DNA of 38,693 nucleotides from Oxalobacteraceae bacterium (GTDB lineage Bacteria > Pseudomonadota > Gammaproteobacteria > Burkholderiales > Burkholderiaceae_D): positions 1 through 38,693 of the forward strand of contig JAIXQK010000038.1 of the NCBI GenBank assembly GCA_027485795.1, read 5' to 3'. The position numbers were made by a program, and so were the translations under genes. Of this stretch, positions 1-22,929 are shown one piece after another. The notes under the pieces were generated by a model, which saw nothing but the letters and a program-made list of their open reading frames with translations, was not told where the DNA came from and made no database searches. Each line of letters opens with the position of its first letter. The first letter of the stretch is position 1.

Positions 1-31
1 AAAAAAGCCCGAGAGCACTGGCTATCGGGCT
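1..31 (-). terminator. Intrinsic terminator of the left-edge SAM-II leader
   Basis: On the minus strand a 7-bp perfect stem (bases 25-31 with 6-12) is followed directly by six or more T residues running into the window edge. It lies about 20 bases downstream of the SAM-II-like aptamer, as expected for an attenuator that stops transcription when SAM is bound. The controlled gene lies outside the window. Confidence 0.8.
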
Positions 32-50
32 GGACTCGTATCGACTCGAG

Positions 51-116
51 CTCGCTTTAGCCGTATTTGTCCGGGAAGTTCCCGCGCGCCCGCAAGCTAA
101 GGTCAAATCGGCGCAT
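51..116 (-). promoter_or_regulatory. SAM-II-like riboswitch aptamer (left-edge copy)
   Basis: Read on the minus strand the element starts with GCGCCGATTTGACC, continues through CTTGCGGGCGC and ends in AAATACGGCTAAAGCG. These are the hallmark blocks of the SAM-II aptamer: the P1 5' arm with GATTTRA, the TTGC that closes the pseudoknot with GCTAA, and the AAATNNNGCTAAA tail. P1 can form between GCGCC and GGCGC. A short hairpin (CGGGAA with TTCCCG) is inserted before the AAATAC block. A promoter lies just upstream and a terminator just downstream, so it should act by transcription attenuation on a minus-strand gene left of the window, probably a methionine or SAM synthesis gene. The family assignment is by consensus recognition only. 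Confidence 0.8.
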
Positions 117-123
117 TGCGCGA

Positions 124-152
124 AGGATAGCGAAACCAGAGGAAAGCGTCAA
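124..152 (-). promoter_or_regulatory. Sigma-70 promoter for the left-edge SAM-II leader
   Basis: On the minus strand TTGACG (bases 152-147) and TATCCT (129-124) are separated by 17 bases. The predicted start of transcription falls only a few bases before the SAM-II-like aptamer. Its position between the ptsI terminator hairpin and the aptamer supports an independent transcript. Confidence 0.65.
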
Positions 153-219: not shown

Positions 220-1977
220 TCAAACTTGGGCCAGCTTCTCCATCGCATCCGCGATCGCCGACGGCTCATAGACTTTGAGCACTTTTTTCGCAGCGGGTTC
301 TAGCAGGCTGAGATCACAGTTGAGTATCTCGTGCTTGACCGACAGCAGCTGTGCCGGATGCATGGAGAATTCACGCAGGCCAATACCCAGCAGCAGGCGG
401 GTCAATTTAGTATCTCCGGCAATTTCACCGCAAACCGCCACGGGTATGCCGGCTTTCGCGCCTGCGGTAATCGTCATTGACAATAATTGCAACACCGCCG
501 GGTGCAGTGGGTTGTAGAGATGGGCAACTTCGTGATCAACCCGATCAATCGCCAGCGTGTACTGAATCAGATCATTGGTGCCAATTGACAGAAAATCAAG
601 TCGCTTGACGAACAAGGGCAGCGTTAACGCCGCTGCGGGAATTTCGATCATGGCGCCGATTTTTATCTCTTGATCAAATTTTCTTTTGGCGTCACGCAGT
701 TGCTGCTTTGCTTGCTCGATCATGGCCAAGGTCTGATCAATCTCGAAAGCATGCGCCAGCATTGGGATCAACAGATTGATTGGCCCATACGCTGATGCGC
801 GCAGGATCGCGCGCAACTGCGTGAGGAACAGCTGCGGCTCGGATAAGCAGTAGCGAATTGCACGCAAGCCGAGCGCGGGATTGAGCGCTGTTTCCTCATC
901 TTTGTCGAGCGGTTTATCAGCGCCGACATCGAGCGTGCGAATCGTAACCGGACGCCCCTTCATCGCGACGACCGCCTTGCGGTAAGACTCGAATTGCTCA
1001 TCTTCGGATGGCGTACGCGAGGCTTGGCCGCTATGCCCCATGAACAAAAATTCGGAACGAAACAGCCCAACGCCCACGGCGCCCGCTTCCAAGGCGCCAA
1101 CGCAATCCTCGGGTAGCTCAATATTGGCCAACAGATGAATGAAGGTGCCATCACGTGTAATGGCTGGCGTTTTCTTCAGCTTGCCGAGCTTCTTGCGCTC
1201 CCGCAGCAGCTGCGCCTGCAGCTCACGGTATTGCTCCAGCACGATCGGCGCCGGATCAACGATCACGGTACCCGCGTCACCATCGATGATGACCCAGTCA
1301 TCATCCTCGATGAGTTGCGAAGCATTCGACATACCAACCGCTGCGGGAATATCCAGGCTGCGCGCGACGATGGCGGTGTGAGAGTTTTGACCGCCGAGAT
1401 CGGTCACAAAACCGACAAATGCGCGATCGCGAAACTGCAGCATATCGGCCGGCGAGATATCGTGCGCAACAACGATCATCTGCGGTACGTACTGATCCGC
1501 TTCAACCGCAGGTACCGTCGGAAACGATTGCGCAGATCCGGTCAATACCTTGAGTACCCGCTCGCCAACTTGCCGAATATCGTTTTTGCGCTCGCGCAGA
1601 TAAGGGTCTTCGATCTCGTCGAACTGGGCTGACAAGGCATCAATTTGTGACAACAGGGCCCATTCGGCGTTGTAGTGTCGGCTGCGAATCATGCGCAGCG
1701 GCTCTTCCGAAATAATCGGATCAGCCAAGATCAACGCATGCACATCGATGAACGCCGCTAACTCGGTAGGCGCATCCATAGGAAGATCGCGGCGCAGAAT
1801 ACGCAGCTCTTCGTTGACGCGCTCAATCGCGCTACTCAGGCGATCGACTTCGGCTTCGAGGCGCTCCTCGGGCACGAGGTAATGTTTGACATCGCGTGCC
1901 GCTGGCCGCAACAGATGCGCCCGACCAATCGCGATACCTCGCGAGACCGGGATGCCGTGCAGCGTGAATGATGCCAT
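220..1977 (-). CDS. ptsI: PTS Enzyme I (phosphoenolpyruvate-protein phosphotransferase)
   Basis: Cytoplasmic enzyme that takes phosphate from phosphoenolpyruvate and passes it to HPr. The 585-residue length is normal for the family. The phosphohistidine motif GGQNSHTAIVAR places the active-site histidine at residue 200, and the C-terminal PEP-binding barrel carries the signature VAVCGEIAGD. The ATG lies 7 bases after the ptsH stop, so the two are co-transcribed. No sugar permease (EIIB or EIIC) follows it; a hairpin terminator ends the operon. Together with the upstream EIIA this points to an incomplete PTS whose role may be regulatory rather than sugar import. That role is inferred from gene content within the window; permease genes could exist elsewhere. 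Confidence 0.96.
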   Translation of the reverse strand: MASFTLHGIPVSRGIAIGRAHLLRPAARDVKHYLVPEERLEAEVDRLSSAIERVNEELRILRRDLPMDAPTELAAFIDVHALILADPIISEEPLRMIRSRHYNAEWALLSQIDALSAQFDEIEDPYLRERKNDIRQVGERVLKVLTGSAQSFPTVPAVEADQYVPQMIVVAHDISPADMLQFRDRAFVGFVTDLGGQNSHTAIVARSLDIPAAVGMSNASQLIEDDDWVIIDGDAGTVIVDPAPIVLEQYRELQAQLLRERKKLGKLKKTPAITRDGTFIHLLANIELPEDCVGALEAGAVGVGLFRSEFLFMGHSGQASRTPSEDEQFESYRKAVVAMKGRPVTIRTLDVGADKPLDKDEETALNPALGLRAIRYCLSEPQLFLTQLRAILRASAYGPINLLIPMLAHAFEIDQTLAMIEQAKQQLRDAKRKFDQEIKIGAMIEIPAAALTLPLFVKRLDFLSIGTNDLIQYTLAIDRVDHEVAHLYNPLHPAVLQLLSMTITAGAKAGIPVAVCGEIAGDTKLTRLLLGIGLREFSMHPAQLLSVKHEILNCDLSLLEPAAKKVLKVYEPSAIADAMEKLAQV

Positions 1978-2275: not shown

Positions 2276-2683
2276 TTAAGTTGGTGACAGTTTCACTCGG
2301 CCATCGACGCGACAAACACCATTCTGGCCACCTGCCAGCGCCATCTCGAGGACAACATCCAGCGTATCGTGGCGGTAGGTGATTGCACGCAGCAACATAG
2401 GCAGGCTAATACCGGCAATCACTTCGACCTCGCCCGGTGCGCATAACTGCAAAGTGCAATTGGCCGGCGTGCCGCCAACGACATCAGTAATCACCAGCAC
2501 GCCACTACCATCATTGATACGCGCAATGGCTGCATGTGCCAAGACGCGAACCTCGTCGGGGTTTTGATCCGCCATGACATCGATGGCCTCAACCTGCGCT
2601 GGAGTTGCGCGAAATACGTGGCTAGCGGCAGCAATAAACGCCTGCCCAAGCGGCGCGTGAGTCAGTAGCAAAATGCCGACCAT
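2276..2683 (-). CDS. PTS EIIA protein, mannose family
   Basis: A 135-residue single-domain protein beginning MVGILLLTHAPLG, the signature of mannose/fructose-family EIIA domains, with histidine 9 as the predicted phosphate acceptor from HPr. It stands alone: no EIIB, EIIC or EIID is encoded nearby. It follows gshB by 35 bases and precedes ptsH by 21 bases. Stand-alone EIIA proteins of this type accompany ptsH and ptsI in many proteobacteria where the PTS acts as a phosphorylation-state sensor. The target of this EIIA cannot be deduced from the sequence. Confidence 0.9.
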   Translation of the reverse strand: MVGILLLTHAPLGQAFIAAASHVFRATPAQVEAIDVMADQNPDEVRVLAHAAIARINDGSGVLVITDVVGGTPANCTLQLCAPGEVEVIAGISLPMLLRAITYRHDTLDVVLEMALAGGQNGVCRVDGRVKLSPT

Positions 2684-22772: not shown

Positions 22773-22804
22773 CGTGTATTGTCGCTGCGCTGTTCGCGCA
22801 AAAT

Positions 22805-22836
22805 AAAAAACCCGGCCTGCATAAGCGAAGCCGGGT
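22805..22836 (-). terminator. Attenuator terminator in the metH leader
   Basis: On the minus strand a 6-7 bp GC-rich stem (22830-22836 with 22810-22816) is followed by six T residues. It lies between the SAM-II-like aptamer and the metH start codon, as needed for SAM-dependent premature termination. Confidence 0.85.
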
Positions 22837-22842
22837 GTGCGT

Positions 22843-22918
22843 TCCGCTTTAGCAGTATTTCTTGGGGAAGCTTCCCCCGCGCCCGCAAGCTGGTATTGAC
22901 AGAGTCAAATCGGCGCGC
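22843..22918 (-). promoter_or_regulatory. SAM-II-like riboswitch of metH
   Basis: On the minus strand the leader reads GCGCCGATTTGAC, then CAGCTTGCGGGCGC and finally AAATACTGCTAAAGCGG, matching the conserved blocks of SAM-II in order and spacing. Two extra hairpins are inserted: TTGAC/GTCAA in the first loop and GGGGAA/TTCCCC before the AAATAC block. A near-identical element without the first insertion lies at 51-116. With metH downstream, a SAM ligand makes biological sense. Long-loop SAM-II variants are known; whether this fits that group needs a covariance model. Confidence 0.85.
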
Positions 22919-22923
22919 CTCGA

Positions 22924-22929
22924 ATTATA
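22924..22929 (-). promoter_or_regulatory. -10 box of the metH riboswitch promoter
   Basis: A perfect TATAAT on the minus strand lies 6-8 bases before the first base of the aptamer and just after the fmt stop codon. No good -35 hexamer is seen at 16-18 bases. Its position suggests that the metH transcript starts at the aptamer itself, separate from def-fmt. Confidence 0.5.

Follow-up and report, generated by a model that had tools for sequence, protein, structure and literature searches.

The leaders of metX and metH in this Oxalobacteraceae bacterium are, in the explanation that we consider likely overall, SAM-II-type transcriptional OFF switches with an extra helix (P3) and, in metH, a competitor hairpin. 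The case is built from sequence features, namely the core, a possible pseudoknot, covariation in P3, a complement to the third strand in metH and complementarity to the terminators. SAM-II riboswitches are among the smallest riboswitches. Both elements lie on the minus strand of the window, the 38,693-nt stretch of DNA that was analysed, and their parts are listed in Table 1. Copy 1 is the metX leader at the first bases of the window, with the metX gene on the adjoining contig C5, and copy 2 is the metH leader, preceded by a TATAAT box and followed by an intrinsic terminator, with its last core base 74 nt upstream of the metH start. The order in each copy is 5'-GCGCC-GAUUUGA-L1-AGCUUGC-GGGCGC-insert-AAAUAC-N-GCUAAAGC. 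P1 is GCGCC/GGCGC in both, P2 can be formed by GCUU with AAGC and GC with GC, followed by an extension, P2a, beyond a bulged A, and each inserted hairpin follows the P1 3' arm and precedes the AAAUAC strand.

Table 1. Positions in the window of the parts of the two leaders and of metH (minus-strand features are written 5' to 3').
Feature	Position	Strand	Remarks
Copy 1, P1 5' arm GCGCC	110..114	-	aligned as P1 in RF00521
Copy 1, third strand GAUUUGA	103..109	-	
Copy 1, GCUUGCGGGCGC	86..97	-	P2 5' strand (92-97) and P1 3' arm GGCGC (86-90)
Copy 1, inserted P3-like hairpin CGGGA-ACU-UCCCG	72..84	-	84 down to 72
Copy 1, A-rich L3 strand AAAUACG and P2 3' strand GCUAAAGC	54..68	-	
Copy 1, intrinsic terminator AGCCCGA..UCGGGCU and U6	1..31	-	
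Copy 1, possible -10 box TATCCT	124..129	-	
Copy 2, P1 5' arm GCGCC	22912..22916	-	
Copy 2, third strand GAUUUGA	22905..22911	-	ligand strand
Copy 2, L1 hairpin UUGAC-UCU-GUCAA	22896..22908	-	arms 22908-22904 and 22900-22896; covers part of the third strand
Copy 2, GCUUGCGGGCGC	22879..22890	-	P2 5' strand (22885-22890) and P1 3' arm GGCGC (22879-22883)
Copy 2, inserted P3-like hairpin GGGGA-AGCU-UCCCC	22864..22877	-	22877 down to 22864
Copy 2, L3 strand AAAUACU and P2 3' strand GCUAAAGC	22846..22860	-	
Copy 2, intrinsic terminator and U-rich tract	22800..22836	-	
Copy 2, -10 box TATAAT	22924..22929	-	7 nt before P1
metH, B12-dependent methionine synthase, 1251 aa	19017..22772	-	Pfam; NCBIfam TIGR02082, 1707.9 bits (cut-off 1010.85)

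Methionine genes follow both elements, metX and metW after copy 1 and metH after copy 2. On contig C5, MetX (388 aa) was best matched by the NCBIfam model for homoserine O-succinyltransferase MetX (680.4 bits, cut-off 560) and also passed the model for O-acetyltransferase MetX, and MetW comes next (238 bits, cut-off 189.5). A contig break within the metX leader marks the start of the window, whose positions 1-113 (about 113 nt) are shared with the end of C5. An apparent third genomic copy at G000:C5:8816-8871 was rejected as copy 1 again, seen through this contig-end overlap of about 113 nt.

We gathered family elements with an exact-core pattern, which was found in 35 of 56 relatives and in at least 114 of 195 family genomes, and fetched a subset of the matches. 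After identical core strings had been merged, the matches listed and fetched gave 135 distinct Oxalobacteraceae elements, to which tblastn assigned metH (60), metX (71) or no downstream gene (4). Because the search pattern fixes the core, core conservation in this set is by construction; likewise, the 79 and 71.3 bits that the two copies reach against our model R1 are no evidence, since R1 was built from these same elements. A search with R1 in 24 genomes, most of them chosen as missed by the pattern, gave a match at E 0.01 or better in 14, and some matches looked unrelated by eye (L301, L311, L316 and L318). A wider scan with the pattern yielded at least 119 sites.

Both elements are very probably SAM-II-type riboswitches, with SAM as the presumed ligand of the class. 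The SAM-II-like identity that the sequence-only reading proposed was borne out by the fold, the core and the downstream genes. The core GAUUUGA / GCUUGC / GCUAAAG agrees with the GAUUUG, GCUUGC and GCUAAAG blocks of the RF00521 consensus, and both helices of the pseudoknot, P1 and P2, can be written in both copies. In SAM-V, whose ligand binding is called virtually identical to that of SAM-II, the ligand and triplex contacts are U8, U9 and U10 of the third strand, U19, U20, U47, A48, A49 and A50 (PMC6061858). By our mapping, equivalents of all of these are present in both copies (in GAUUUGA, CUUGC and GCUAAAG), and A18, the partner of A50 in SAM-V, is a C in the copies as it is in the RF00521 consensus. 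Among the listed pattern relatives, P1 varies with its pairing kept (GCGCC/GGCGC, GUGCC/GGCAC, CACC/GGUG). Most metH elements differ from many metX elements in both strands of P2a, which is CC(A)/GG in 54 of the 60 metH elements; among the 71 metX elements, 28 have UC(A)/GA and 12 have UU(A)/GA. Against P2a, the combination is UC(A)/GU in 18 of the 71, which leaves one of the two pairs unmatched, and a different one in another 13.

The window held no match to SAM-II at the Rfam gathering level. Copy 1 reached 10.3 bits against RF00521 over model positions 11-41, below the cut-off of 36, and copy 2 gave no match up to E 10. Relatives without the insertion scored 36.9, 36.2, 32.6, 32.2, 29.9, 27.5 and 23.4 bits against the same cut-off, the value of 32.2 bits coming from a relative of the same family. 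Among eight wider relatives, L043 (36.9) and L119 (36.2) passed and four stood at 23.4-32.6 bits, whereas L086 and L102, which carry inserted hairpins, gave no match up to E 0.5; this suggests that the insertions, and not the core, cost the Rfam match. The elements thus share with RF00521 a possible P1/P2 pseudoknot, the same three strands, methionine genes and a terminator after P2, but differ in the added hairpin between P1 and L3, in the third-strand complement in L1 of metH, and in scoring below the cut-off. Judged by these features they would work like SAM-II, to which they are linked by intermediates, yet they are not formal members of RF00521. Elsewhere in the same genome, the best two of nine RF00521 matches up to E 10 were rejected, L001 as a repetitive coding stretch and L002 as lacking a met gene in the stretch inspected; the remaining seven stood at E 1.36 or more. 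A folding program that cannot fold pseudoknots predicted P3 and the terminator in the copy 1 leader, with no P1 and with GCUUGC paired to GCGAGC instead; in the whole copy 2 leader the predicted fold combined P1, the L1 hairpin, P3 and the terminator.

The hairpin between P1 and L3 is almost certainly real. It had been described as an insertion shared by both copies, and it lies where it had been placed, on the minus strand, but its stem has 5 bp, as a sixth pair would leave a loop of 1 or 2 nt. The two copies alone are weak evidence, with p values of 0.025 and 0.055 for their insert sequences in dinucleotide shuffles (rows L015 and L041, the same inserts). An insert of at least 12 nt is present in 108 of the 135 distinct family elements (56 of 60 metH, 52 of 71 metX and none of the four without a gene assignment), and P3 is absent from the other 27 (4 of 60 metH, 19 of 71 metX and all four without assignment). 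All 108 inserts fold to at least 3 bp and 85 to at least 4 bp, with 59 distinct stems. In dinucleotide shuffles p was 0.05 or below for 47 of the 108, and the median z was negative in each of 16 metH and 17 metX genera.

The claim of compensatory change fared well in the alignment test that had been set beforehand: family elements keep the P1/L3 hairpin with covariation. In an alignment of 34 metX elements, four of the five pairs have changes on both sides. Covariation was 0.202 against a shuffle mean of 0.117, and neither this value nor the 17 double-changed cells were reached in any of 500 shuffles; the number of pair types was reached by 190 of 500, and 75.7% of the cells were paired as against 77.9% when the partners were slid by -1. 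In same-length comparisons, 341 double-changed pairs were kept versus 37-58 with slid partners. The kept fraction of changed pairs (0.48) is not above that of slides -1 and -2 (0.54 and 0.53), while the double changes and the +1 and +2 slides do separate the true P3 pairing. The metH alignment of P3 (A2, 30 elements) mixes two registers and was left out of the pair counts. Swapping one arm between genera weakened the P3 fold from -6.80 to -4.36 kcal/mol in metH and from -7.65 to -4.43 kcal/mol in metX. Plain GGG/CCC stems are interchangeable between genera, with median arm-swap fractions of 0.21-0.57 in metH genera g41, g54, g51, g3, g61, g47 and g68; the median was 0.47 in metX genus g6.

In the wider scan, 16 of the at least 119 sites have a long insert, and eight of these are family members or near-identical to them. 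Seven of the inserts among the matches listed fold with p of 0.02 or below in simple shuffles (L051, L055, L062, L068, L101, L120 and L123); judged by name, three of them belong to other families (two Legionellaceae and one Nitrosomonadaceae), and the other four carry names such as Betaproteobacteria bacterium. L155 was set aside as spurious, since this pattern hit lacks P1 and its insert fails to fold. Separately, at G064:C392:34391-34619 (L310 and L315) a metX leader is apparently split into halves 86 nt apart, as if by an insertion in the P3 region.

SAM-V has a P3 stem-loop directly after the P1 3' strand, and P3 is stated to be absent in SAM-II (PMC6061858). On the sequence evidence above, the SAM-II-type elements described here do have a predicted hairpin at the P3 place of SAM-V. 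The likeness extends to the position of P3 before the A-minor strand and to the same kind of ligand contacts (PMC6061858). SAM-V differs in being translational with a P3 of 3 bp (PMC6061858), whereas each copy in the window has a terminator, a stem of 5 bp and the SAM-II consensus, and neither copy matched the SAM-V model up to E 10. P3 probably stacks near P1 and away from the ligand, a position in space that we infer. The earlier suggestion that the inserts alter the kinetics is plausible.

The second hairpin of the metH copy, TTGAC/GTCAA, is in its reported position and is conserved in metH leaders, but it is not a plain inserted stem, since one of its arms is the SAM-binding strand. The addition consists of GTCAA and the loop alone, TTGA being part of the invariant GATTTGA core; with UUUGA unvarying, that arm cannot covary. 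L1 measures at least 12 nt in 54 of the 60 distinct metH elements. UCAA occurs in all 54 of these long-loop leaders (14 genera), as TCAAA in 46, and in none of 30 long-loop metX leaders. A complement of at least 5 nt to the core was found in 53 of the 54 metH loops (shuffles: mean 7.1, maximum 14 in 500) and in one of the 30 metX loops. The base after GATTTGA can pair with the base before TCAA in 54 of 54 (U-G 43, C-G 7, U-A 4). The computed cost of freeing the third strand averaged 3.8 kcal/mol in metH, exceeding 1 in all 54, and 0.02 kcal/mol in metX, exceeding 0.5 in one of 30; for the L1 hairpin of copy 2 the predicted free energy is 2.5 kcal/mol. When the nascent 5' piece was folded as it stands before P1/P2 closure, the core U's paired with L1 in the minimum-energy fold of all 54 metH leaders. 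In metX leaders the loop is short, or it holds a hairpin that in most cases does not involve the core.

Six distinct metH elements (genera g10, g12, g59 and g62) have short loops and no TCAA complement. Of the model-search matches, L295, L296 and L297, which amount to two distinct elements, likewise combine a short loop with a lack of TCAA, and TCAA is present in L292, from a further genus. The TCAA-bearing pattern was found in none of 290 genomes from other families of the order and in 2 of 10 family genomes in the same draw. The 54 metH loops hold 37 different loop strings, yet several loop positions are conserved. The conservation of TCAA could partly reflect shared ancestry, as the shuffles ignore relatedness. 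Own L1 hairpins were also seen in metX leaders L080, L196, L203, L205, L234 and L256 and in L143, to which no gene is assigned; their stems are unrelated across genera (GGUUG/CAACC, CCGGCUGCC/GGCAGC and others), which indicates that insertions are accommodated at the P2 end of the pseudoknot as well.

We lean towards the metH hairpin being functional as a competitor, and other readings of the two insertions were weighed against the same data. P3 might be neutral filler at a P1/L3 junction that tolerates any stable hairpin, with its presence unselected. Its very free sequence and length, the 27 family elements without it and its recurrence at the seven further loci of the wider scan, three of them outside the family by name, speak for this; that its pairing survives double changes and that 56 of 60 distinct metH elements have it speak against, and the pairing kept through double changes implies some selection, at least against unpaired filler. 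We regard neutral filler as rather unlikely. For L1, the complement could be compatible with the bound state, forming only GAC/GUC or an L1-internal UUGA/UCAA that shortens the loop without competition. Such an internal TTGA..TCAA, a weaker hairpin leaving the third strand free, is available in 21 of the 54 long metH loops but missing in 33, the mean L1 energy is -0.18 kcal/mol with the core held unpaired versus -4.01 with the core free, and the outer pair flanking the repeat can form in all 54, which makes this reading improbable. Still less probable, and in our judgement very unlikely, is that UUUGA..UCAAA is the DNA operator palindrome of a methionine regulator overlapping the leader: the inverted repeat does lie just downstream of the -10 box (TATAAT in 57 of the 60 Oxalobacteraceae metH leaders), but the spacing of its arms varies (9 in 31, 8 in 11, 5 in 7 and 10 in 5 of 54), unlike a dimer site, and metX leaders, which have no such repeat, still keep the RNA core that forms one of its arms.

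A further alternative concerns the strand. RF02424 (Bp2_287, 'Burkholderia sRNA') covers the same metX and metH leader loci on the antisense strand and matches both sites in the window on the plus strand with 27.7 and 22.8 bits, short of its cut-off of 70, so that the element could be read as an sRNA of the opposite strand. The terminator, the -10 box and the gene order are all on the minus strand, and on these grounds we rejected a plus-strand sRNA. Moreover, in five of eight relatives searched (L043, L056, L090, L114 and L119) one and the same site is matched by RF00521 on one strand and by RF02424 on the other, with metX following on the RF00521 strand in L119 and L090, the two with an assigned gene; from this coincidence RF02424 is probably the antisense of a SAM-II leader. 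Bp2_Cand287 has been reported upstream of methionine genes in most genomes, with a cis-acting element suggested, and metX and metZ are shown beside it (PMC3521395). The sRNA reading is thus extremely unlikely, and we return to SAM-II-type leaders on the minus strand.

With our own finder, terminators were found 3' of 63 of the 71 metX and 57 of the 60 metH elements. The 5' arm of the terminator is complementary to GCUUGCGGGCGC over at least 5 nt in 63 of 63 metX leaders (mostly GCCCG) and over at least 4 nt in 57 of 57 metH leaders (mostly CCCG). Of 161 control terminators, which came from wider loci and the window, with mixed taxa and a stricter stem (7 versus 6), 14% were complementary over at least 5 nt and 50% over at least 4 nt. 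Among the matches listed, 80 of the at least 119 wider elements have a terminator, 38 of them with a complement of at least 5 nt. A -10-like hexamer by our own pattern precedes 31 of the 71 Oxalobacteraceae metX leaders, as TATCCT in 19. The complementarity of the terminator arm implies that the aptamer strand can act as an anti-terminator without SAM. An anti-terminator-like role has been speculated for the GC-rich regions of metXZ RNA (Leyn 2014, PMC4239095), and SAM-II is described as mostly transcriptional (PMC6061858, PMC2258182).

Taking these features together, we propose the following mechanism, with SAM and the OFF direction both adopted from the class. Without SAM, GCUUGCGGGC, which comprises the P2 5' strand and the P1 3' arm, would pair with the terminator 5' arm (CCCG or GCCCG) and the gene would be read; with SAM, GCUUGCGGGC would be locked in the P1/P2 pseudoknot, letting the terminator form and turning metX or metH off. 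P3 would be a peripheral helix between P1 and the A-rich L3 strand. In metH, UUUGA(Y) would pair with (R)UCAAA of the first loop before P1 is complete. Because this hairpin must open before SAM binds, we propose that the competitor raises the SAM threshold of metH: SAM would have to displace the L1 hairpin for the triplex to form, the two being mutually exclusive, and shut-off of metH would need more SAM than that of metX.

Parts of this system appear to have been described under other names. The metXZ RNA of beta-proteobacterial metX/metZ leaders resembles our elements in its pseudoknot and terminator (Leyn 2014, PMC4239095), and its description, with six conserved regions, 1/4 and 2/6 pairing and a terminator, fits them in a comparison by description only. 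It was reported as single copy per genome and treated as a new element, while SAM_alpha was reported only in Rhizobiales and Rhodobacterales; the portions of that account consulted make no mention of metH leaders or inserted hairpins (PMC4239095). SAM-II in beta-proteobacteria is already on record (PMC2258182, PMC1273637). In a partial literature search, covering few subscription papers, no link from metXZ RNA or RF02424 to SAM-II came up, nor any account of a P3 or of a decoy for the third strand in SAM-II. The sequence-only reading had also spoken of a long-loop subgroup. If RF01726 was meant, this does not hold: the metH copy reached 15.0 bits against a cut-off of 44, with the RF01726 P1 aligned to the inserted hairpin, copy 1 gave no match up to E 10, and membership was rejected. 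RF01726 (SAM-II long loops) is, by its Rfam name, a variant with longer loops, and is known from Bacteroidetes and marine sequences (Weinberg 2010, PMC2864571).

The model search also revealed a second SAM-II-like leader, GAGUUAA..ACUUGC..CGCUAAAGCG, before metK, in which U8 of the third strand is replaced by G. We found its pattern in 94 of 116 genomes of the family, spread over 33 of 44 genera, and a slightly shorter one in 3 of 97 genomes of other families. One such leader is in the genome of the window (G000:C180:19595-19641, L340); others are L300, L302, L313 and L319-L346. All 32 fetched sites, which include repeats and reduce to 24 distinct ones, are followed by MetK, as the NCBIfam metK model confirmed for two. 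P1 in the 24 is CCGCC/GGCGG (9), CCGUC/GACGG (4), UCGCC/GGCGA (2), ACGCC/GGCGU (1) or CCGCU/AGCGG (1), with an inner-pair mismatch in 7. In 8 of the 24 the longest complementary stretch pairs CAGGCUC with GAGCCUG immediately ahead of the start codon, and in 10 it is of the GUCGC/GCGAC or CGCAG/CUGCG kind; the metK form is apparently translational. Leaders L300, L302 and L313 had no Rfam match at the site at E 1 or less. Another locus, L309, holds a GAUUUAA-type SAM-II-like element (1501-1565, minus strand, 35.1 bits to R1), followed by a frame that on visual inspection resembles a MoxR-type AAA ATPase and not a methionine gene, and a SAM-I/IV riboswitch match (2441-2548, minus strand, 53.9 bits, cut-off 41.1) about 0.9 kb away on the same contig.

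According to PMC6061858, recent studies of SAM-II all used one metX sequence. The natural set described here keeps the pocket and adds a peripheral helix and a decoy for the ligand strand, by which the setting of a threshold through a competing hairpin becomes testable. The P3 result removes one feature that separated SAM-II from SAM-V, and, if the identification holds, the orphan annotations metXZ and RF02424 would become SAM-II leaders, one of them changing strand. For the Oxalobacteraceae, we offer as a tentative idea, held at somewhat less than even confidence, that one ancestral SAM-II aptamer was tuned per gene: a short loop or a loop with its own hairpin in metX, a competitor in metH, and a separate, apparently translational form with a GAGUUAA third strand in metK. 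If this is true, the three RNAs would provide ordered control of the methionine cycle, with sensitivity set by a removable decoy and not by the pocket.
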